NCBI RefSeq assembly: GCF_021018745.1
Contig: NZ_CP063845.1
Location: 2,170,001 to 2,234,000, forward strand
Source: Gloeobacter morelensis MG652769
Lineage (GTDB): Bacteria > Cyanobacteriota > Cyanobacteriia > Gloeobacterales > Gloeobacteraceae
Length of the DNA: 64,000 nucleotides
Reading direction: 5' to 3'
Below the pieces are notes generated by a model that was not told the DNA's origin, searched no databases, and saw only the letters and a program-made list of their open reading frames with translations. Position numbers and translations under genes: made by a program. This document shows, piece after piece, positions 2,414-46,399 of this stretch. Position 1 is the first letter of the stretch. The number at the start of each line of letters is the position of its first letter.

Positions 2414-4219
<1,806 letters not shown>

Positions 4220-26580: not shown

Positions 26581-26820
26581 ATGCCCGCTGCAAAATGGTT
26601 CGATGCCGGGCGATCAATTTACCGGCGTTTGTCGCGTTGTTGGGCAAGTGGAGTTTACACAGCCATGCTTGCCCGAATACGTCCGACCCCAGCAGTCAAA
26701 ATCGCCACGACCGCCGAGGAGCGCGAAGCCATCTTCCGTTTCCGCCGTTTTGTCGCCGCCTACCGCTTTCGCAACAGTACGATGGCGGCTCGACCATCAC
26801 CAGCAGTAGCCCGCGCGTGA
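26581..26820 (+). pseudogene. GNAT/FeeM-like acyltransferase, internally deleted
   Basis: 79 codons. The first half (KWFDAGRSIYRRLSRCWASG, then KIATTAEEREAIFRFR) matches the start of the intact gene at 37325-38557. It then jumps directly to FRNSTMAAR, which corresponds to residues about 150-160 of that gene (FRHSSMAAR). Roughly 100 codons of the acyltransferase core are deleted and the 3' end is lost. The shared N-terminal frame supports the longer start in the intact paralogue. Confidence 0.75.
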
Positions 26821-26917: not shown

Positions 26918-27700
26918 ATGCATTCGTCGATTCCCGCGGACAACTCCGCGCCTGTCTCGCTCGCCTACTACCTTCTTCATCCGCCCGATGACCACGGTTT
27001 GAGTGTCCGTCGCGAAGCAGCCTGGAACGATACCTTCTACGGCAGGCTGTTGGTTTCTTCTTTGAAGCTGCGCACGCAAGTGCTTAGAAACAGCGGCGTT
27101 TACCACAAAGCAGAAAGCAAACTGTGCGTCGATGAACTCGACGATTACGCTTATCATCTGTTGTGTATTAACGGCGACAATTGTTGCGTGGGCGCGATCC
27201 GTTTTCTCGAGCATGAGCGCCTGCAGCGGGTGGGATTGCAGAGCGGCATAGAAAAATTGGCCCGCTGGGCTGCTCCCAAAATCCCCGCTTACCGGGCGGC
27301 CGTCGAAATGGTGGAACGGTCGCGCGAGGCAAAAAAGCGCCTGGTCGAAGCCGGAATGCTGGTGGTGCGGACCGATTTGCAAAAAGTATCGAGTATCGCC
27401 TTGGGACTGACTATGCTCAGCATCCGATACGGGCGTCAGCAAGGGTTCGACCTTGCCTTGTGCAGCGCGGGAGTCCTTCACGGGGCGTCGCTATACCGGC
27501 GATTGGGATTTGCAGATTTCGTCGATGCCGAGGGCCGGCCCCTCGCCCCGCTCGCCCATCCGGAACTGGCTGATCAAGTCACCTTTCAGTATCTCGAATT
27601 GCAAGCCCAACCCGAGGCGCGGATTTGCCGTCTGCAGGAGCGCTACGGCAATGTAGCGCGGGAGCTGAAGTATCTGGACGGACTGCTGCACGCAGCTTGA
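26918..27700 (+). CDS. GNAT-fold N-acyltransferase-like protein
   Basis: 260 residues. The core shows YHLLCINGDNCCVGAIRFLE (GNAT central strands), RLVEAGMLVVRTDLQKVSSI, GLTMLSIRYGRQQGFDLALC (acyl carrier or CoA-binding helix region) and VLHGASLYRRLGFADF (terminal GNAT strand and helix). The layout is closest to the FeeM/autoinducer-synthase-like N-acyltransferases that use acyl-ACP; the assignment is from fold pattern only. GGGGG precedes the ATG. It lies just after the deleted paralogue and before the broken beta-propeller gene. Confidence 0.65.
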   Translation: MHSSIPADNSAPVSLAYYLLHPPDDHGLSVRREAAWNDTFYGRLLVSSLKLRTQVLRNSGVYHKAESKLCVDELDDYAYHLLCINGDNCCVGAIRFLEHERLQRVGLQSGIEKLARWAAPKIPAYRAAVEMVERSREAKKRLVEAGMLVVRTDLQKVSSIALGLTMLSIRYGRQQGFDLALCSAGVLHGASLYRRLGFADFVDAEGRPLAPLAHPELADQVTFQYLELQAQPEARICRLQERYGNVARELKYLDGLLHAA

Positions 27701-30328: not shown

Positions 30329-31033
30329 CTAACCTCGTGCGTAGCGGTTTGCACTGCCCTGGATCTCTTCGACATCTTTGAAATGCCTAGCAGCAGCGAG
30401 GATCCCTCGGTTGATGGCTGAGAGCCAAGGGGTGAGCGGTCTGAGAAAATCGACCATCAGCACCGCGCGGCAACGGGGGTCATGGTTCCATGCTTCGTGC
30501 TCGAAGGTGTCGTCAAAAATCAGACTTTTGCCCTCCTTCCACGAACGGACTTGGTCATCGACGCGGATGGCGCACGCTTCTGCTTCCACCGGAACCATTA
30601 GACCTAGGTGATAGCGCAGCACACCCTTGCAAGGTCCGGGGTGTGGGGGAATGTGTGCATTGCCTTCTAGAATTGAGAACATCGCGAGGTTCATGCCCGG
30701 AATGCGTTGCAGCAGGGCAGCCGTCTGCGGGAAGCGTTCACAGTTTTCGTCGACCCAGCGGCCGTAGACATTGAAGAACAGTGATTTCCACCTCGTACCG
30801 GCAAACATGGACTGCCGCTGCGACAGGCTCGACATATACGGTATTCGGTCCGGCTCTGTCAGCGCTTCATCAAGATCGCGCCGAATCGTTTTCCAAGAGG
30901 CCTCGATTTCGGGCACCCAGGCAAACTGGTCAGGCTCAAAAAAGCGTCTATTGGCATCGGGACAGAATCGATCGATAAGCTTATTGTTCAGGTCCATTAA
31001 TAGAGGATTTTGACCAGGCGGAAACTTTTTCAT
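30329..31033 (-). CDS. Aspartyl/asparaginyl beta-hydroxylase family protein (copy 1)
   Basis: A 234-residue Fe(II)/2-oxoglutarate dioxygenase of the Asp/Asn beta-hydroxylase family. Core motifs: MNLAMFSILEGNAHIPPHPG (first iron His), KGVLRYHLGLMVP, SLIFDDTFEHEAWNHDPRCR (second iron His and the 2-oxoglutarate Arg) and VDFLRPL. The Asp ligand found in some relatives is not obvious, as is normal for this family. It is paralogous to 36329-37051. Family members hydroxylate EGF-like domains, ornithine lipids (OlsC/OlsD-like) or lipopeptide residues; the GNAT neighbours favour an acylated amino acid (inference). Confidence 0.88.
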   Translation of the reverse strand: MKKFPPGQNPLLMDLNNKLIDRFCPDANRRFFEPDQFAWVPEIEASWKTIRRDLDEALTEPDRIPYMSSLSQRQSMFAGTRWKSLFFNVYGRWVDENCERFPQTAALLQRIPGMNLAMFSILEGNAHIPPHPGPCKGVLRYHLGLMVPVEAEACAIRVDDQVRSWKEGKSLIFDDTFEHEAWNHDPRCRAVLMVDFLRPLTPWLSAINRGILAAARHFKDVEEIQGSANRYARG

Positions 31034-34344: not shown

Positions 34345-35334
34345 TCACTGGTTTGGCATCCGACGGGCAGCGATAAGTGCGACGACGGCATCGGGCGGGC
34401 TTGGCAGCGCCCGAACATCAACGAGTCCAGTCCGGCTCAAGAGTGTCTCGACTTGGCTGGGAACTATCACATAACCGCCCCGAAGCACTGTTCGCAGTCG
34501 GACGAGGGATGCAGTCAGTGGATCGGTACCGGGATTAGCCATTGCAAACAGGAGCCATCCGCCGGGACGCAACGCGCGGTGCACGTGTTCGCAGGCCACT
34601 GGAATCACCTGCTCAGGCATGAAGGCGCTGGGAATCCAGGCGAGATCAAAGGCGCTTGTATCGCCAAGATCTTCTGCCGCCTGTTCCCGTAACTGAATGC
34701 GGCCTGTGAGTTCAGCACTGCGCACATTCGCGCGCGCGAGGGCTAAGGATGGTACCCAGGGATCGATGCCGACCACGCGCAGCGACGGCCATAGGCGTGC
34801 CATCGCGATCGACAGGCCGGCGATGCCCACGCCAACGTCAAGAAACGATCCGCCGGGGGAACTCAGCCGCTGCGCAAGCCCTTCGAGACGCGGTACGATC
34901 GTGCGCGTCAACGTATCGGCAAAGCCATCGGAGACCTCTCCCGCCGCCTGCAGGATCTCGGTCTCGGTATGTGCCCACATTGTTGTCCGTTTTGTGTCGA
35001 ACAGAAGCTTTGTTTCCAAAAGCATATTGAAGCGAATTTCTGCCAGCAGGTGCTTGAGTTGAGCCGGATTGTACTTCTCTATCAGGTCGCACACCCCGAG
35101 TGCGCTTAGAACTTCGTCGATCCGGGCCTGGAGTACGGGATCAAGGGAATTGCCCGTCACCTGCGCATCGAGCACTGCAGCGAGGGCGGCAAGGATGGTC
35201 GTCGAACGACTCTGGCGATCGACGAATTCGCGAAGGGCTTGGGTACTGGCTTTGCTCCGGGTGCAATTTACTTCATCGTTCACGGCTGTGTCCTTGTAGC
35301 TGCCGGTGCTCGATAATGCTTGAAGCGAATGCAT
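34345..35334 (-). CDS. SAM-dependent methyltransferase
   Basis: 329 residues. A helical N-terminal half of about 155 residues precedes a class I methyltransferase fold. Motif I reads SFLDVGVGIAGLSIAMARLW; VVGIDPWVPSLALARANV is the acidic strand-2 region; then FDLAWIPSAFMP and ALRPGGWLLFAMANPG. The terminal GLVDVRALPSPPDAVVALIA resembles O-methyltransferases of natural-product pathways. ATG at 35334 is used; a TTG six codons upstream is possible. It lies in the accessory region downstream of no obvious partner. Confidence 0.8.
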   Translation of the reverse strand: MHSLQALSSTGSYKDTAVNDEVNCTRSKASTQALREFVDRQSRSTTILAALAAVLDAQVTGNSLDPVLQARIDEVLSALGVCDLIEKYNPAQLKHLLAEIRFNMLLETKLLFDTKRTTMWAHTETEILQAAGEVSDGFADTLTRTIVPRLEGLAQRLSSPGGSFLDVGVGIAGLSIAMARLWPSLRVVGIDPWVPSLALARANVRSAELTGRIQLREQAAEDLGDTSAFDLAWIPSAFMPEQVIPVACEHVHRALRPGGWLLFAMANPGTDPLTASLVRLRTVLRGGYVIVPSQVETLLSRTGLVDVRALPSPPDAVVALIAARRMPNQ

Positions 35335-35571
35335 TTGCCGGCAGCTAAGCAAATATATTTTACAGCAATGTGCTTGTGGTTATGCTTCTATAAACGCTTT
35401 TAAAAATGCTCAAATACAGTGCTTGAATTGGTTGCTCTTTGGTTGGGGTTTTGTTTGGTTTGGCACGAAGATCTGTGGGTGCGAGAGGTGGAACCCCCTT
35501 CGGGTTCCCCTCTCGCGCTCTCCCCCTCCTCCCCGCGTCGAGGGGGCTGCCAGCCCCCGACACCCCCGGAC
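35335..35571. repeat. Non-coding region with a GC-rich interspersed repeat, copy 1
   Basis: From about 35485 the sequence holds a hairpin (GGTGGAACCC / GGGTTCCCCTC) and GC-rich tracts ending CCCCCGACACCCCCGGAC. On the other strand this resembles 57977-58050 over about 75 bp. The repeat resumes at 35781 (CCCCCGGACTGAGCGGCACG), split by the MITE. Confidence 0.55.
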
Positions 35572-36328: not shown

Positions 36329-37051
36329 TTAGCTTTTTTCAGTGCCACGTCCACGCGCATAGCGACTTGCAGTCTCCTGGGCTTCTTTGACCGTGTGCGA
36401 GTGTACGGCTGCAGCGGCAATGCCTCGGTTGAGCACCGCCAGCCAGCCAGGCAGCGGTCTGAAAAAATCGACAAACAACACCACCCGAGGGCGCGGATCC
36501 AGATTCCAGACTTCGTGCTCGAAGGTGTCGTCGAATATCAAACTTTTTCCTTCTTTCCAACAGCGGACTTCGTTGTCGACGCGCAGGGCGCACGTTTCGT
36601 TTTCCACCGGTACCTTCAAGCCCAAGTGATAGCGCAGTACGCCCTTGTAGGGGCCTTGGTGGGTAGGAATGCGGGCGTTGCCGTCCAGAATCGAAAACAT
36701 CGCCAGATTCATCCCCGGAATGCGCCGCAGCAGCGCGGCGGTCTGCGGGAAGCGTTCGCAGTTCTCTTCTACTCGGCGGCCGTAGAAATAGAACATAAAC
36801 GTCTTCCATCGCGTCCCGGCAAAAACAGACTGCCGCTCGGACAGGCTCGCCCAATCCGGTATGCGCTCCGGCTCGGCGAGCGCCGCGTCGAGATCCCGGC
36901 GAATGATCCGCCAGGCACTCTCGATTTCGCCCACCCAGGCGAAGCGCTCGGTCTCAAAAAATCGCCGATCGGCATCGGGACAAAACCGCTCGATCAGCCT
37001 GTGTTGTAGGTTGACGAAGGGCTGGGGTTTTGACGAAAGAACTTCGTTCAT
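36329..37051 (-). CDS. Aspartyl/asparaginyl beta-hydroxylase family protein (copy 2)
   Basis: 240 residues, an Fe(II)/2-oxoglutarate dioxygenase closely similar to 30329-31033, especially over GMNLAMFSILDGNARIPTHQ, KGVLRYHLGLKVPVE, WKEGKSLIFDDTFEHEVWNL and VDFFRPL. The iron histidines are both present. Its ATG overlaps the stop of the short hybrid gene (4 bp) and thus follows the GNAT-cNMP fusion gene in one transcription unit. A role in hydroxylating an acylated amino acid or lipid head group is inferred from that coupling and from OlsC/OlsD precedents. Confidence 0.88.
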   Translation of the reverse strand: MNEVLSSKPQPFVNLQHRLIERFCPDADRRFFETERFAWVGEIESAWRIIRRDLDAALAEPERIPDWASLSERQSVFAGTRWKTFMFYFYGRRVEENCERFPQTAALLRRIPGMNLAMFSILDGNARIPTHQGPYKGVLRYHLGLKVPVENETCALRVDNEVRCWKEGKSLIFDDTFEHEVWNLDPRPRVVLFVDFFRPLPGWLAVLNRGIAAAAVHSHTVKEAQETASRYARGRGTEKS

Positions 37052-37320
37052 TTGCGATCCTTTTTGTACATATAAAAACTAACAAGCCGACGCATCAAGC
37101 TCCACTCGGCCCAACGGAGTTTGAGCGGCTGCCACAGCAAGGCAGGTACATAGCGCCAGAATCTGGGAAATATTGCAAATGTTTGACTATCGATACGATC
37201 GGCGGTGGTGATCGGCTTGGGAAGCTGCCGGTTCCTCTCCTCTGCAAAAATGCGGTGGCGAAAGCGGAAGATGGCTTCGCGCTCCGCAGCGGTAGTGGCA
37301 ATTTTGACGTGGATAGCCAT
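37048..37320 (-). pseudogene. Hybrid ORF: GNAT start joined to a cupin-like tail
   Basis: 90 codons. The first half, MAIHVKIATTAAEREAIFRF, then RHRIFAEERNRQLP, is the start of the FeeM-like acyltransferase family as at 38470. The second half, FAIFPRFWRYVPALLWQPLK, resembles the C-terminal tail of the JmjC/cupin protein at 28802. It looks like a deletion that fused two adjacent genes. It starts 4 bp after the GNAT-cNMP stop and overlaps the hydroxylase start, so it may still be translated. Confidence 0.6.
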
Positions 37321-37324
37321 GGAT

Positions 37325-38557
37325 TCAACTGTGGAGAATGGCTGTGGGCAGAAATCGGCTGCACGGCTCCTGCAGGAGGTTTGCGCGCAGATGGTGGATG
37401 ACCTGGGGGTGCTTGTGCCGGTGCTGGGCAACGGCTGCCTCCGGCAAGACCAGTAGATAAACTTCGCTCAGGGCGACCGCCTGCCCTACGGCGCAGCAGG
37501 AGGCCAAAATGCCTTCGGCACCGAAACATTCGCCGCTTGAGAGCACGTCGGGCGGCCGGTCAAAGTTGCCAGGGTAGTACAGCGCGACCGCACCGGAAGC
37601 GATGATGAAAAGCGACCCGAGCAGGTCTCCTCGCTGCACGATAATCTTGCCCGCCCGTACCCGGTGGAGGAGCGCGTGCTTGAGGAGCGCTCTGGCGTCC
37701 GCCTCGCTCAGCCCCTGCAGCATCCGGATGGCCCGTTCGGGAGGACCGCCCAAAAGCCGGCACATTTGGGACCACCGCCGTTCGGGCGACAGCGTCCGCG
37801 CGGGAGCAAATTCCGGCGGCGCGGGAAATTGCTCCGAAAACCAGGCGCCCTCCGAGGCGCGGTTGGCAAAGCGGCGCGCCTCGCGGGCGAAAGGAGAACC
37901 CACCGAGCGCAGGTGCTCCACATCCTCACCCACGCAGACCATCGGTGCCATCAGGCCGAACGCATGATTTACATCAAGATAATTATTCACATAGCGTCGG
38001 TAGCCGAGGTGCTCGTACATCTCAATCTGGTGGAAGCGGCTGAGTAAAAAATCGAAGCGCACGCCCTCCTCGCGGCCGTGTCGGTAGGCGGCGATCGCGA
38101 GCCGCGCGGCCATCGAACTGTGGCGAAAACGGCTGGCGACCATAAAACGACCGCTCACCGAGAGTGTGTTTGGGGCCACCTTGGCAAAGCGTTCCAGGGC
38201 AAACGCCTCGCGCCATTCGGGGTGACAATTGTCGATATCGACCATATTGCGCCGCAGCGTGGCTACCACTTCGCCTTGATCTTCGATGTAAAACAACAGG
38301 GCGCTCTCGTCGTGTCGATCGCACACGTGCTGGCGGCGGTGGTCGGTGTGGGGAAGCCACACGTTCATTTCCTGGATGTAGATGCGGTAGCGAAAGCGGA
38401 AGATGGCTTCGCGCTCCGCGTCGGTAGTGGCAATTTTGACCTGCGGCAGTGTCTGGTTTTGGGTGACCATGGCTCTGAAAACTCCACTTGCCCAACAACG
38501 CGACAAACGCCGGTGGATTGATCGCCTGGGACGGAACCATTTTTGAGAATCGGGCAT
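37325..38557 (-). CDS. FeeM-like N-acyltransferase fused to a cyclic-nucleotide-binding domain
   Basis: 410 residues. Residues about 45-230 form a GNAT/N-acyl amino acid synthase-like domain: VKIATTDAEREAIFRFRYRI, FYIEDQGEVVATLRRNMVDI, LSVSGRFMVASRFRHSSMAA and RFHQIEMYEHLGYRRYVNNY. Residues about 290-400 form a cNMP-binding beta-roll: HALLHRVRAGKIIVQRGDLL, SLFIIASGAVALYYPG and LSSGECFGAEGILASCCAVG. In the last the usual phosphate-binding GExxGE/RA is only partly kept. ATG at 38557 is chosen because its leader is conserved in frame in the 26581 remnant; ATG at 38470 is possible. First gene of the unit with the hydroxylase. Confidence 0.78.
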   Translation of the reverse strand: MPDSQKWFRPRRSIHRRLSRCWASGVFRAMVTQNQTLPQVKIATTDAEREAIFRFRYRIYIQEMNVWLPHTDHRRQHVCDRHDESALLFYIEDQGEVVATLRRNMVDIDNCHPEWREAFALERFAKVAPNTLSVSGRFMVASRFRHSSMAARLAIAAYRHGREEGVRFDFLLSRFHQIEMYEHLGYRRYVNNYLDVNHAFGLMAPMVCVGEDVEHLRSVGSPFAREARRFANRASEGAWFSEQFPAPPEFAPARTLSPERRWSQMCRLLGGPPERAIRMLQGLSEADARALLKHALLHRVRAGKIIVQRGDLLGSLFIIASGAVALYYPGNFDRPPDVLSSGECFGAEGILASCCAVGQAVALSEVYLLVLPEAAVAQHRHKHPQVIHHLRANLLQEPCSRFLPTAILHS

Positions 38558-38657
38558 CGGCCGCCAGCTCTGACGCAAATTGAATGCTGTCACCGGGGGC
38601 ATTGAACGGCCGGAGGCAGCCGATTTCGGCCATCACTCACTCAGAAAAAGCGCGCGG

Positions 38658-39221: not shown

Positions 39222-40188
39222 ATTGTTCAGCCCGGCTCGGTTTCACAATAGCCGCTCAAAGCTCTCTAGATCCGGCGCATCCAGGACAGCCTCCGCCAAT
39301 TGCTCCAGCCGGTCTGTCTCAGTAATTTCCCCCAGGCGGGTAAGGAGAGCTTCCGGCAGCGGGCCAAAGCGGTGGGTGAGCAGACGCACCAGTACACGCC
39401 GTTGTCCTTCCTGTCGGCCTTCCTGTCGGCCTTCCTGTCGGCCTTCCTGTCGGCCTTCTTCGAGAATCTGTTGATAGACCACCGACTGGCGCATCTTCCC
39501 CTCCGTGAATATCCGATTCAACAAATCCAACTCGTACCTCAGACCCGCCAGGATCTTCACCCGAATGGTCACATCCTGGCGTTTGGGCTCCTCTATCGTA
39601 TCGAGCCGGGCCGCCACCCGGCGCAGCAATGCCTCGGGGGACTGGGCACGCGCCAGGGGGGCTAACGGCAACAACGCCGGGTCGGACAGCAGCACCGCCG
39701 GGTCTTCCTCCCACAGCCGCACCACCCGATAGCGATGAACAGTGGTCGGACTGGCGTACGCTTCGGCGATCTCGGTGGTGGCCGGGGGCGGCGTGAGCAA
39801 AATGACGATCTGCTGCACCGGCAGGCGATAAGTCCGCGTCAGCCGCACGGAGTAGTCGAGCATGCGCAGCGGCAGCGGTGGCTCCGATTCGTACTCGGTT
39901 TGAAACTCAAGATGGAGGATGCCGCCACCCACACTCAAAAACAGCACACTGTCCGCCCGGATCGGCTCGATGCTCAGCTCGGTTTTGAGCACGCTCACCT
40001 GCGGCGGCGCTTCCCCCAAAAGCCAGGTGGTGAAGGACGCCGGCGCCTGTTCGGCGAGCAGTTTGCACAGGTTGTCGTAGGACACCTTCTTCTCTTGCGC
40101 ACCGCACCGCATTCTCCCATGCCGAGGGCGATAGTCGGGCGGTCGGCAGCCACGGGAGGAGCGCTTGGTCTGCTGCCGAGGGTTGGAC
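39222..40188. repeat. Direct duplication, unit A (about 967 bp)
   Basis: Nearly identical to 40775-41756. It begins ATTGTTCAGCCCGGCTCGGT and ends shortly after CTTGGTCTGCTGCCGA. It contains the Rpn/DUF4351-like gene and about 75 bp upstream of it. Confidence 0.9.
39243..40112 (-). CDS. Rpn/DUF4351-type PD-(D/E)XK nuclease-like protein (copy A)
   Basis: 289 residues. The N-terminal part is a PD-(D/E)XK-like fold: SIEPIRADSVLFLSVGGGIL (Asp), LHLEFQTEYE (the ExQ motif) and MLDYSVRLTRTY. The C-terminus has the DUF4351 region LTHRFGPLPEALLTRLGEIT. Between them lie four tandem RQEG units encoded by a 12-bp repeat. Proteins of this family (related to RpnA and YhgA) include recombination-promoting nucleases; many are lineage-expanded in cyanobacteria. 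ATG at 40112 is used; no strong ribosome-binding site. Confidence 0.8.
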   Translation of the reverse strand: MRCGAQEKKVSYDNLCKLLAEQAPASFTTWLLGEAPPQVSVLKTELSIEPIRADSVLFLSVGGGILHLEFQTEYESEPPLPLRMLDYSVRLTRTYRLPVQQIVILLTPPPATTEIAEAYASPTTVHRYRVVRLWEEDPAVLLSDPALLPLAPLARAQSPEALLRRVAARLDTIEEPKRQDVTIRVKILAGLRYELDLLNRIFTEGKMRQSVVYQQILEEGRQEGRQEGRQEGRQEGQRRVLVRLLTHRFGPLPEALLTRLGEITETDRLEQLAEAVLDAPDLESFERLL

Positions 40189-40776: not shown

Positions 40777-41756
40777 TGTTCAGCCCGGCTCGGTTTCACA
40801 ATAGCCGCTCAAAGCTCTGCAGGTCCGACGCATCCAGGACAGCCTCCGCCAATTGCTCCAGCCGGTCTGTCTCAGTAATTTCCCCCAGGCGGGTAAGGAG
40901 TGCTTCCGGCAGCGGGCCAAAGCGGTGGGTGAGCAGACGCACCAGTATCCGCCGTTGTCCTTTCTGTTGCCCTTCCTGTTGTCCTTCCTGTCGGCCTTCC
41001 TGTCGGCCTTCCTGTCGGCCTTCTTCGAGAATCTGTTGATAGACCACCGACTGGCGCATCTTCCCCTCCGTGAATATCCGATTCAACAAATCCAACTCGT
41101 ACCTCAGACCCGCCAGGATCTTCACCCGAATGGTCACATCCTGGCGTTTGGGCTCCTCTATCGTATCGAGCCGGGCCGCCACCCGGCGCAGCAATGCCTC
41201 GGGGGACTGGGCACGCGCCAGGGGGGCTAACGGCAACAACGCCGGGTCGGACAGCAGCACCGCCGGGTCTTCCTCCCACAGCCGCACCACCCGATAGCGA
41301 TGAACAGTGGTCGGACTGGCGTACGCTTCGGCGATCTCGGTGGTGGCCGGGGGCGGCGTGAGCAAAATGACGATCTGCTGCACCGGCAGGCGATAAGTCC
41401 GCGTCAGCCGCACGGAGTAGTCGAGCATGCGCAGCGGCAGCGGTGGCTCCGATTCGTACTCGGTTTGAAACTCAAGATGGAGGATGCCGCCACCCACACT
41501 CAAAAACAGCACACTGTCCGCCCGGATCGGCTCGATGCTCAGCTCGGTTTTGAGCACGCTCACCTGCGGCGGCGCTTCCCCCAAAAGCCAGGTGGTGAAG
41601 GACGCCGGCGCCTGTTCGGCGAGCAGTTTGCACAGGTTGTCGTAGGACACCTTCTTCTCTTGCGCACCGCACCGCATTCTCCCATACCGAGGGTGATAGT
41701 CGGGCGGTCGGCAGCCACGGGAGGAGCGCTTGGTCTGCTGCCGAACGGTTGGACTC
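40775..41756. repeat. Direct duplication, unit B (about 982 bp)
   Basis: Nearly identical to 39222-40188, differing at a few bases and by one extra 12-bp unit in the RQEG tract. Both right boundaries lie just after CTTGGTCTGCTGCCGA. Confidence 0.9.
40796..41677 (-). CDS. Rpn/DUF4351-type PD-(D/E)XK nuclease-like protein (copy B)
   Basis: 293 residues, almost identical to copy A at 39243. Differences cluster in the repeat tract, which reads RQEG-RQEG-RQEG-QQEG-QQKG here, one unit longer than copy A, and in a few residues at the end (LDASDLQSFERLL). The catalytic-looking ILHLEFQTEYE segment is unchanged, so both copies may be active. The frame is open further upstream to 41899 but only over the kinase 3' end. 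Confidence 0.8.
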   Translation of the reverse strand: MRCGAQEKKVSYDNLCKLLAEQAPASFTTWLLGEAPPQVSVLKTELSIEPIRADSVLFLSVGGGILHLEFQTEYESEPPLPLRMLDYSVRLTRTYRLPVQQIVILLTPPPATTEIAEAYASPTTVHRYRVVRLWEEDPAVLLSDPALLPLAPLARAQSPEALLRRVAARLDTIEEPKRQDVTIRVKILAGLRYELDLLNRIFTEGKMRQSVVYQQILEEGRQEGRQEGRQEGQQEGQQKGQRRILVRLLTHRFGPLPEALLTRLGEITETDRLEQLAEAVLDASDLQSFERLL

Positions 41757-41786
41757 GCTTTGGTTGCTAAGGAAGCAGTGCAAACA

Positions 41787-44552
41787 TCACGGTAGCTGGG
41801 CCAGCGCCCGCAACCGCATCTTCTCCACCTGCATCCTGAGATCGGCCAGAAGTTGCTCGAAGCGCTTATCCCCGCGCAGGTTCTCGAAGATGGGGTCAAA
41901 TTGCAATGTATGCACGTCGCGGTAGCCGTTTTTGATCGCTTCGCGCAGCCGGCCGAGCGCCGCTTGCCGTTCTTCGCGCAGGGCGTGAATTACCGCCATA
42001 TCTAGAAAGTACAGCCACTCTTCATTGCCTGTGGAGACCCGCTTGCGGTTAAAATCCAGGCTCTGGGCGAGCAGGCGACGCGCGCGCTGCGGTCGATTTT
42101 CCTGAAGGGCAAGATAGCCAAGGACGGTCCGTGCCCGCAGACTGGTATCGCCCGCATCCTCCAGGTCGGTGGTCTCGGTAAGCTTGAGCATCTTCTCGTA
42201 GTAGCGGCGCGAGCGTTCCCACCGCCCGCTCTGCCGCTCCACGGCCCCGGCCAGACTCAAAGCCTCCACGTTATTCGGCTCCACTCCAAGCACCTGCAAG
42301 GCGATCTGCCGGGCCTCATCGTGCTTCCCCCGACGCAGGTAAGCGCGGCCACGGCTCACCTGCAGCCTCGCCCCATCCGGGATGAGGGCAAGACCCTTAT
42401 CGATCCAGACATCGCCCTTTGCGGCTTCTCCTAGTAGCCAGTAGTAGGAAGCAATCGAGCGATAACAACCGGAGCACAGCGGATTAACCCGAACCGCCTT
42501 TTTCATCCAGTACAGACCTTCGTCCAGCCTGCCGAGGCTCGCCAGGATCGCCGAGTAGTTGTACATTGCCGGGAACGAATTTGGGTTCAAGTCGATGGCC
42601 TGGCGATACTCCGCCATCGCCTGAGGCTGGAAGCGCAGTTCCATCTGCGAGTAACAGGCAGCCATGGCGATATGACCCTCCGCCAGACCGGGCTCCAGAG
42701 CAACGGCGCGGCCCGCCTCCCGACAGCCGGCCTCGCGCCACGACACCGCACCACCGTAGATAAACCGGTTGAGATAGCCGACGGCCAGTCCGCTCTGGGC
42801 GAGAGCAAAGCGGGGGTCAAGGGCCAGGGCCTGCTTGAAAAAACCGATCGCGTATTCGTTGTCTTTGACAGTAAAGCGATTGTTGTACTCGCGCCCGCGC
42901 AGATAGTAACGGTAGGCCGCCGCATCACGGGCAGGCGGGCGCGCCAGGCGGATCTTTTCCTCAGTTGTAAGCTTTGCTTTCATGGCTGCGGCGATCCGCT
43001 GCGCCACTTCTGTCTGGATCGCAAAAATATCCTGCAGTTTCCGGTCATACTGCTCCGCCCACAACTGGGTGCCGCTGCGGGGGTCCACCAGCCGGGCGGC
43101 GATGCGGACGCGCTCGCCCGAGCGCAGGACGCTGCCGGTGAGCACGCCGGTGGCTCCCAGGTCGCGGCCGATCTGAGCAAGGCTGCTGTCGCGGTACTGC
43201 AGCGCCGCCCGGTCGGAGATGACCGTGAGCGCCGCTACCTTGCCCAGTTGGGTGGTGAGGCTGAGGGTGAGTCCATCGGCAAGGCGCTCGTCGCCTGTGC
43301 TGCCTCGCTCGCTAAAGGGCAGCACCACTACGGTTTTACCGGAGGCTGCCAGCAAGCGCTCCTCCAGCAACGACCAACCGTAACCGCTTGCCAGTGCCAG
43401 TGCCGCCGCAGCCAGAGCGGTACTCACCCGGTGTCGGCCGAGGAACTTGCGGATGCCGTAGAACCAGGAGCCGCCTCGGGCTGTGACCGGCCGACCGTCT
43501 AAATAATTCCTGATATCGGCGGCGAAGGCCTCGACCGATGGGTAGCGCCCTTCCGGCTCAACGGACATGGCTTTGCAGGCGATGCTGTCGAGTTCTTTGA
43601 GCTGACTGGATCGGAGTCGGGCAGCAGGCTCCGGCCCGGGGCGAGGAGGCCGACTGCCGTGGAGCAATTCGTAGAGCACGACACCCAGGGCGTAGATATC
43701 GGTGAGCGGGGTGATGGCCCCCCCGTGTAACTGTTCTGGCGCGGCGTACTCGGGGGTGAGCGCCCCTTCGGTAACCCCGGCGGGCTGTACAGTCCCGGCT
43801 GCACCGCCTGCCTCGGGCGGCGTACTCTCTGTGCACTCCAGGAGCTTGGCGACGCCAAAATCGAGCAACCGGGGCATGCCCTCCGCCGTCACCAGGATGT
43901 TGCCAGGTTTGAGGTCGCGGTGGACGATTTGCCGCCGATGGGCATAGGAAACCGCCCCGCACACCCCCAAGAACAGTTCCAGCCGGGCGCGCACGGCGAG
44001 GCGACGACGCTCGCAGTAGCGGTCGATCGCTTCGCCGTCGATGTAGTCCATCACCAGGTAGGGCAGTCCCCCGGCGGTCGTGCCGCCATCGATCAGGTGG
44101 GCGATATTCGGGTGGTCGAGGTCCGCGAGGATTTGCCGCTCCAGGCGGAAGCGCCCCACCAGTGTCTCCGTCCCGAGCTCGGCGCGCAGGACTTTGATGG
44201 CGACCTGCTTGCGGTACTGCGCGTCTGCCCGCTCCGCCAGATAGACACTGCCCATCCCGCCCTGGCCGAGTTTGCTCACCACCCGATAGGGGCCGAGATA
44301 TTCTCCTATCTGCAGAGTCGGTCCAGGTTCCTCCAGCAGTTGAACTACCGGGCGGTTCAAAAAGTTTTCGCTCTCCCGGTGGTGCTCTAAAAGCGAAAGG
44401 GCTTCCGCCAGCATCTGCGCACAATCTGCGCAGGAGCGCTCCAGAAAAGCCCGCCGCTCATCGGCAGGCTTTTCGAGCGCCTCGGTAAACAGGTTTTTCA
44501 GCCGCTGCCACTGTTCGCTCGTCAGCACGCTCCCACCCCGTCTATCGATCAA
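41787..44552 (-). CDS. Ser/Thr protein kinase with TolB-like and TPR domains
   Basis: 921 residues. Kinase domain at about 85-355: YRVVSKLGQGGMGSVYLAER (Gly-rich loop), VAIKVL (Lys), IVHRDLKPGNILV (catalytic loop), LLDFGVAKLLE (DFG) and YAAPEQLHGG. A single membrane helix follows near residue 380 (STALAAAALALASGYGW). Then a TolB-like/adenylate-cyclase-associated domain (LADGLTLSLTTQLGKVAALT, ISDRAALQYRDSS, VDPRSGTQLWAEQYDR) and several TPRs to the end. TTG at 44552 is the apparent start; GTG at 44528 is an alternative. It follows an ECF sigma gene by 51 bp, the usual pairing of this kinase class with ECF43-type sigma factors. Confidence 0.9.
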   Translation of the reverse strand: MIDRRGGSVLTSEQWQRLKNLFTEALEKPADERRAFLERSCADCAQMLAEALSLLEHHRESENFLNRPVVQLLEEPGPTLQIGEYLGPYRVVSKLGQGGMGSVYLAERADAQYRKQVAIKVLRAELGTETLVGRFRLERQILADLDHPNIAHLIDGGTTAGGLPYLVMDYIDGEAIDRYCERRRLAVRARLELFLGVCGAVSYAHRRQIVHRDLKPGNILVTAEGMPRLLDFGVAKLLECTESTPPEAGGAAGTVQPAGVTEGALTPEYAAPEQLHGGAITPLTDIYALGVVLYELLHGSRPPRPGPEPAARLRSSQLKELDSIACKAMSVEPEGRYPSVEAFAADIRNYLDGRPVTARGGSWFYGIRKFLGRHRVSTALAAAALALASGYGWSLLEERLLAASGKTVVVLPFSERGSTGDERLADGLTLSLTTQLGKVAALTVISDRAALQYRDSSLAQIGRDLGATGVLTGSVLRSGERVRIAARLVDPRSGTQLWAEQYDRKLQDIFAIQTEVAQRIAAAMKAKLTTEEKIRLARPPARDAAAYRYYLRGREYNNRFTVKDNEYAIGFFKQALALDPRFALAQSGLAVGYLNRFIYGGAVSWREAGCREAGRAVALEPGLAEGHIAMAACYSQMELRFQPQAMAEYRQAIDLNPNSFPAMYNYSAILASLGRLDEGLYWMKKAVRVNPLCSGCYRSIASYYWLLGEAAKGDVWIDKGLALIPDGARLQVSRGRAYLRRGKHDEARQIALQVLGVEPNNVEALSLAGAVERQSGRWERSRRYYEKMLKLTETTDLEDAGDTSLRARTVLGYLALQENRPQRARRLLAQSLDFNRKRVSTGNEEWLYFLDMAVIHALREERQAALGRLREAIKNGYRDVHTLQFDPIFENLRGDKRFEQLLADLRMQVEKMRLRALAQLP

Positions 44553-45586: not shown

Positions 45587-46399
45587 CTAGAGGTTTTCGC
45601 CCCGGCGCAGCTCCTCGAAAAGGCGGGTGGTCTCGGTGGCCGGCGGGGAACCCAACTCCCGGCGCAACAGGTGCACCAGGGTCTGGTACTGCCGCAGGGC
45701 GAGGCCCGTCTCACCGAGGCGGGCGTAACAGCGCATCAGTTCGCGGTGGGCGCGCTCGAGGAGGTTGTCGCAGGTGACGATGCGGCGGTAGACGTCGGCG
45801 GCCTGCAGACTCTGCCCGGTGGCGCTCAACAGTTGCCCCAGGGCAAACAGCGCTTCGACAAACCGCCTGTGCAATTCCTCCCGTCTCGACAGACACCAAT
45901 CGCTCTGAATCAGCCCTTCGAGCAATTCGCCCTCGTAGAGACCCACTGCCGCCTCGAAGCAGGCGATCGCCCGCTCGGGGGCACCGACCTCCAGCCGCTT
46001 ACCCTCGGCACAGTGGGCCTCGAACTCCTCGACGTCGAACCAGTAAGGCAAGCAGCGGTTGAATGCATAGCGCTGGTGCTCATAGACAATCCACTCCGCC
46101 GGGCCGAGGGCGCGGCGCAGGTGGTGCAAAGTCGTGTGGAAACTGCGGCGCAGCTGCAGCGCCGAGGCATCGGGCCACAGTGCCAGGCCGAGTTGTTCTT
46201 TAGTGGCGCAGCGGCGCAGCAGCAGACAGAAAAACAGCTCCCGGGGCCTCGCGTAGGTCCAGTCGGTCGCACTCAGAGCGTACTCGCCCCGGTACACCAA
46301 AGCTGTACCCAGGGCGTAGATTCGCAGCGGCAGCACCTCCTTCGGGTCGGCCCCGTTGGCCGGCGGGTGATACGGGGTCTTCCAGGGCATCTTCTGCAT
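45587..46399 (-). CDS. BTAD-domain (SARP-like) transcriptional regulator
   Basis: 270 residues. The N-terminal OmpR-like winged-helix part reads RIYALGTALVYRGEYALSAT, then WTYARPRELFFCLLLRRCAT and LQLRRSFHTTLHHLRRALGP, as in the DNA-binding part of SARP and SARP-like regulators. The C-terminal bacterial transcriptional activation domain is TPR-like (ERAHRELMRCYARLGETGLA, then LRQYQTLVHLLRRELGSPPA). It ends 353 bp before the sigma gene. No ATPase domain follows, so it is a short, SARP-type form. The target is unknown. Confidence 0.82.
   Translation of the reverse strand: MQKMPWKTPYHPPANGADPKEVLPLRIYALGTALVYRGEYALSATDWTYARPRELFFCLLLRRCATKEQLGLALWPDASALQLRRSFHTTLHHLRRALGPAEWIVYEHQRYAFNRCLPYWFDVEEFEAHCAEGKRLEVGAPERAIACFEAAVGLYEGELLEGLIQSDWCLSRREELHRRFVEALFALGQLLSATGQSLQAADVYRRIVTCDNLLERAHRELMRCYARLGETGLALRQYQTLVHLLRRELGSPPATETTRLFEELRRGENL

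Follow-up and report, generated by a model that had tools for sequence, protein, structure and literature searches.

Can the synthesis of an N-acyl amino acid be gated by a cyclic nucleotide through a sensor domain carried on the enzyme itself? The question is raised by a gene of Gloeobacter morelensis (5.1-Mb genome assembly, chromosome 4.92 Mb) located in the window, the whole 64,000-nucleotide stretch of DNA analyzed here. An earlier note on this DNA had read the gene as a FeeM/OlsB-like GNAT domain fused to a cNMP-type β-roll, with cAMP or cGMP controlling the enzyme. Coordinates of the gene, its domains and its neighbors are collected in Table 1.

Table 1. Features of the fusion gene and its surroundings in the window
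Feature	Position	Strand	Description and basis
GNAT (FeeM/LuxI-like) + cNMP-like fusion CDS	37325..38470	−	381 aa, corrected start; domain matches, homolog alignments
Putative acyl-ACP-type GNAT domain	37871..38470	−	Residues 1–200 of 381-aa protein; invariant R27, D51, D54, R73, R108
CRP-like β-roll (PF00027)	37424..37666	−	Residues 269–349 of 381-aa protein, C-terminal; Pfam
Phosphate-binding-cassette region GECFGAEGILASCCAVGQAV	37475..37534	−	Residues 313–332; canonical Glu displaced, Arg absent
Cluster-specific upstream motif CGATCAA...CGTTTGTCGCGTTGTT	38494..38525	−	In front of synthase; candidate promoter/regulator site
90-aa ORF, probable relic	37048..37320	−	Begins with copy of synthase N-terminus (71% over 31 aa); 4-nt overlap with next gene
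Relic: upstream motif and first synthase codons, then internal deletion	26582..26820	+	Homolog and motif alignments
OlsC/LpxO-like Asp/Asn-type hydroxylase (PF05118)	36329..37051	−	Next full gene downstream of synthase; PF05118 match over cut-off
SAM-dependent methyltransferase	34345..35352	−	Downstream; conserved in G001
SARP/AfsR-like regulator	45587..46399	−	G001 counterpart preceded by upstream motif of synthase
Second FeeM/Acetyltransf_5 protein, single-domain	26918..27700	+	260 aa; domain match
Second OlsC/LpxO-like hydroxylase	30329..31033	−	In same window

The Fusion Gene and Its Start

The gene lies in an open frame of 425 amino acids (37325–38602, minus strand). Homologs align with this frame only from about residue 45 onward, and the DNA ahead of that point is conserved, yet carries stop codons in two relatives (G002 and G001). 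The start is therefore placed at 38470, where GTGGAG precedes the start codon; the start at 38557 given in the earlier note is too early. Matches to PF13444, PF21926, and PF00027 in this one protein bear out the pairing of a GNAT domain with a cNMP-type β-roll. Both halves evolve under purifying selection, as dN/dS values indicate, and 14 other full-length proteins share the arrangement; chance, frameshift, and misassembly can thus be set aside, and the fusion is real.

Distribution of the Fusion

Three other Gloeobacterales genomes encode full-length homologs, four proteins in all (two copies in G001, one each in G002 and G004); G003, a genome of the same genus, has no full-length homolog. 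Searching 386 genomes of the phylum with a profile of the five Gloeobacterales proteins yielded ten more full-length proteins from eight genomes: four from family f4, relatives with small genomes, and four from family f45, which belongs to another class. Across the 18 genomes of that class that were searched, full-length matches, among the matches listed, occur only in f45. The family alignment thus comprises 15 full-length proteins, five from Gloeobacterales and ten others, from a search limited to one phylum. The tree places the five Gloeobacterales proteins together in a supported clade, subject to a long-branch warning. No relatives were found on plasmids with the G. morelensis protein as query; with a relative as query there were partial matches only, which, among the matches listed, lie over the cNMP part. 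Viral contigs contained no relatives of the fusion protein, and our literature search found no paper pairing the two domains. Within the phylum, three lineages carry the fusion, which is undescribed in the literature searched.

At three loci of f45, the gene order is motB, motA, synthase (L112, 8299–11011; L113, 8344–10968; L116, 1922–4635), the synthase lying close behind motA at one and overlapping it by 1 base at the other two. In f4, a methyltransferase follows the synthase, overlapping it by 4 nt in L111.

The N-Terminal Half

From its sequence, the N-terminal half is likely an acyl-ACP-using GNAT enzyme. In the 425-residue frame, PF13444 (Acetyltransf_5) matches residues 70–168 (E 1e-8; 36.2 bits against a cut-off of 22.4) and PF21926 (FeeM) matches residues 66–205 with 27.2–27.5 bits, barely over its cut-off of 27. 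Each of these models is matched by 14 of the 15 family members. OlsB and exosortase-acyltransferase models are matched, below cut-off, by 11 of the 15; the G. morelensis protein falls below both cut-offs, and misses the threshold of the OlsB equivalog (NF052554) with 19.8 against 350 bits.

A profile of residues 10–115 supports the acyl-ACP reading, because three of its five matches in the PDB are LuxI-type AHL synthases (3p2f, E 9e-4; 6wns, 0.9; 6wn0, 1.4), and their alignments with the GNAT half keep Arg-Tyr, Asp-x2-Asp, and Arg in register. The five residues singled out in Table 1 are invariant across all 15 aligned sequences, and for EsaI-type enzymes conservation of Arg24, Asp45, and Arg68 has been reported (PMC10580929). 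FeeM's own PDB entry (2G0B) was not matched by the family profiles in PDB searches, and the Pfam scan of the synthase frame gave no match to a LuxI-type family. The SAM-pocket Trp of LuxI enzymes is not conserved in the fusion family. In our reading of the alignment, the LuxI catalytic Glu presumably has no clear equivalent ahead of R108. An AlphaFold model built from only two sequences (the G. morelensis protein and L036) has a mean pLDDT of 36. Taken with the tallies and PDB matches above, the placement of this half among acyl-ACP-using GNAT enzymes in the earlier note appears sound.

The β-Roll and Its Nucleotide Pocket

PF00027 (cNMP_binding) matches residues 313–393 of the 425-residue frame with an E-value of 5e-11 and 43 bits, against a cut-off of 27.5. 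In the 15-member alignment, the phosphate-binding cassette reads GEM[AG]F[LF]....R[ST]ADV in all ten rows from outside Gloeobacterales. In all five rows from Gloeobacterales, F[GA]AEG stands there instead, the Glu being displaced and the Arg missing. The earlier note had named a β-roll lacking a nucleotide pocket as grounds for giving up its reading; judged from the alignment, two key residues of the pocket are gone, while the PF00027 match itself is kept. The domain is not decaying, given its dN/dS of 0.12–0.31; in four of five pairs the GNAT half has the higher value. This purifying selection implies that the Gloeobacterales β-roll probably serves a purpose other than cNMP binding, for instance another ligand or dimerization. 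The β-roll also weakly matches the model of the family 2B encapsulin CBD, and these CBDs are reported not to bind cyclic nucleotides, owing to divergent site residues (PMC12407261).

No class III cyclase (PF00211) was found in the G. morelensis genome or in five others (G001–G005), with positive controls in Synechococcus elongatus and G007; nor was a class I cyclase (PF01295) found in G. morelensis or G001–G004. PF00211 is present in seven of the eight genomes that encode relatives with an intact cassette. Gating by cAMP or cGMP, as earlier proposed, is thus unlikely for the G. morelensis gene, which has lost the cassette Glu and Arg in a genome where neither cyclase family was found. Since the pocket residues are intact in eight genomes of other lineages, cNMP-gated acyl-amide synthesis may hold there. 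c-di-GMP was also considered as a ligand and looks unlikely, because the G. morelensis genome has a single, partial GGDEF match. The same genome has nine PF00027 matches; of the eight domains read, only L002 is near-canonical in the cassette.

Neighboring Genes and the Upstream Motif

The hydroxylase that follows the synthase remains below the OlsC equivalog cut-off (184.5 against 450 bits), and no OlsA-like O-acyltransferase was seen beside the synthase. In G001, the gene order is synthase, Uma2, synthase, hydroxylase, methyltransferase. Because the gene adjoins OlsC/LpxO-like hydroxylases and a methyltransferase and stands under a cluster-specific motif, its surroundings suggest an aminolipid-type pathway. 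If this reading holds, the gene may also point to aminolipids in Gloeobacter; a literature search on Gloeobacter and ornithine lipid found nothing beyond a tree-of-life study.

The exact 16-mer within the upstream motif, CGTTTGTCGCGTTGTT, occurs in the window at 26626–26641 (plus strand) and 38494–38509 (minus strand), and in L037 at 2177–2192 and 3266–3281. There are two exact copies in the G. morelensis genome, three in G001, one in G002, and two in G004, always within the synthase cluster; in G003 and G005 the best match is no closer than two mismatches. The 16-mer sits before the synthase, before the SARP-type gene and the E1 dehydrogenase gene of G001, and before relics. From this placement it may be a regulator-binding site.

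Several further features of the region were noted. Copies of the synthase's upstream region and/or first codons turn up repeatedly: in the relic at 26582–26820, the ORF at 37048–37320, and the E1 dehydrogenase gene of G004. The 90-residue ORF is probably a relic, since it is interrupted by a stop codon in G002. In G004 (L039, 3067–5097), the start of E1 dehydrogenase is replaced by the synthase N-terminus, and in G001 the E1 dehydrogenase (L037, 2–2031 and upstream) is split by a transposase-like insert, yet each piece shares 91% identity with the G004 gene. Next to the G004 synthase lie E1-E2-FabF genes; the idea that they supply acyl chains was set aside, the G. morelensis genome having no close copy of E1. 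Some 5 kb separates the two hydroxylase genes of the window, and this interval contains a transposase-like gene and an acyltransferase-3 gene. Near-identical DUF4351-type proteins with QEGR repeats (39243–40112 and 40796–41899) flank a Uma2 gene, apparently through a recent duplication. No support was found for an anti-phage role.

Proposed Mechanism and Alternatives

We favor, with moderate confidence, a reading of the gene as an N-acyltransferase of the LuxI/FeeM/OlsB kind whose β-roll does not bind cyclic nucleotides, and which belongs to a motif-switched cluster of aminolipid type. The enzyme would transfer a fatty acyl chain from acyl-ACP to an amine, either an amino acid or a similar compound; acyl-ACP as donor, the amine that accepts the chain, and the product are what we infer. 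In the Gloeobacterales lineage, the β-roll would have lost cNMP binding and been kept, presumably, for dimerization or for sensing another ligand. The OlsC/LpxO-like hydroxylase and the methyltransferase may then hydroxylate or methylate the N-acyl amide, and the common upstream motif would serve to switch the cluster on, perhaps with the SARP regulator as its binder.

A sharper version of this explanation, compatible with it, has the β-roll sense another small molecule (such as a lipid, an amino acid, 2-oxoglutarate, or c-di-AMP) and regulate the enzyme. We regard this as a real possibility that falls short of even chances. CRP-fold domains with ligands other than cNMP exist, NtcA being an example, and selection maintains the β-roll despite the lost cNMP residues; dimerization alone, however, would conserve it likewise. 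For c-di-AMP in particular, Gloeobacter species have two diadenylate cyclases (PMC4284465, PMC5986932). That cAMP or cGMP binds the β-roll and gates N-acyl amino acid synthesis in G. morelensis is, by comparison, very improbable. The PF00027 score above cut-off speaks for such gating, as does the canonical cassette of the ten relatives, six of which, those of the other class, reside in genomes with 6–32 class III cyclase matches each, and the principle is shown by mycobacterial Pat, in which the cNMP domain precedes the GNAT domain (PMC8556138). Against this stand the missing cassette Glu and Arg in every Gloeobacterales copy and the failure to find a class III or class I cyclase in the genome.

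The catalytic half has its own alternative, which we judge unlikely: instead of an acyl-ACP enzyme, it would be an ordinary GNAT acetyltransferase with proteins or small molecules as substrates. The full N-terminal profile does match SACOL1063 and dopamine N-acetyltransferase at E-values like those of the AHL synthases, and ten members match the mycobacterial Pat model, but what the profile matches in ordinary GNATs is largely the core shared by all GNAT domains (about residues 93–159). The N-terminal R..D..D..R signature, on the other hand, fits the AHL synthases and the FeeM, OlsB, and exosortase-acyltransferase models.

For the family as a whole, it is tempting to speculate, though we hold the idea to be rather doubtful, that it represents a new architecture, in which a cyclic-nucleotide switch is attached C-terminally to an N-acyl-amide synthase. 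Relatives with an intact pocket, including one cyclase-rich lineage coupled to motA/motB, would then carry out cAMP/cGMP-gated acyl-amide or aminolipid synthesis, and in the Gloeobacter branch, where no cyclases are detectable, the domain would be rewired to another signal. If this is so, the phylum holds a fused family with a nucleotide sensor wired into lipid or signal synthesis; in one branch the sensor domain has outlived the synthesis of its ligand.

Comparison With Known Systems

The catalytic domain appears to be of the same kind as FeeM and the N-acyl amino acid synthases (PF21926, PDB entry 2G0B), given the Pfam FeeM matches across nearly the whole family. Unlike FeeM, the fusion adds a C-terminal CRP-like domain, and the score of the G. 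morelensis member is marginal. With the OlsB ornithine N-acyltransferase and the aminolipid pathway it shares PF13444 and an OlsC/LpxO-like hydroxylase encoded by the next full gene; however, it scores far under the OlsB cut-off, has no OlsA-like partner in sight, and the hydroxylase is itself under the OlsC cut-off. The aligned Arg, Asp-x2-Asp, Arg signature links the family to LuxI-type AHL synthases, from which it differs in the missing LuxI-type Pfam match and in the SAM-pocket Trp. The cAMP-gated Pat of mycobacteria (Rv0998, MSMEG_5458) likewise carries a cNMP-type domain and a GNAT domain on one chain. In contrast to the fusion, which has the GNAT domain first, belongs to another GNAT branch, and has a degenerate pocket, Pat has its cNMP domain first and acetylates proteins (PMC8556138). 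The family 2B encapsulin CBD resembles the Gloeobacterales β-roll in combining a cNMP fold with a divergent site, and binds no cyclic nucleotides (PMC12407261), but is inserted in a shell protein, whereas the β-roll is joined to an enzyme. The intact and degenerate pockets of the fusion family would offer a natural pair for following the fate of CRP-fold domains after the loss of cNMP binding, the same question that the family 2B encapsulins pose.
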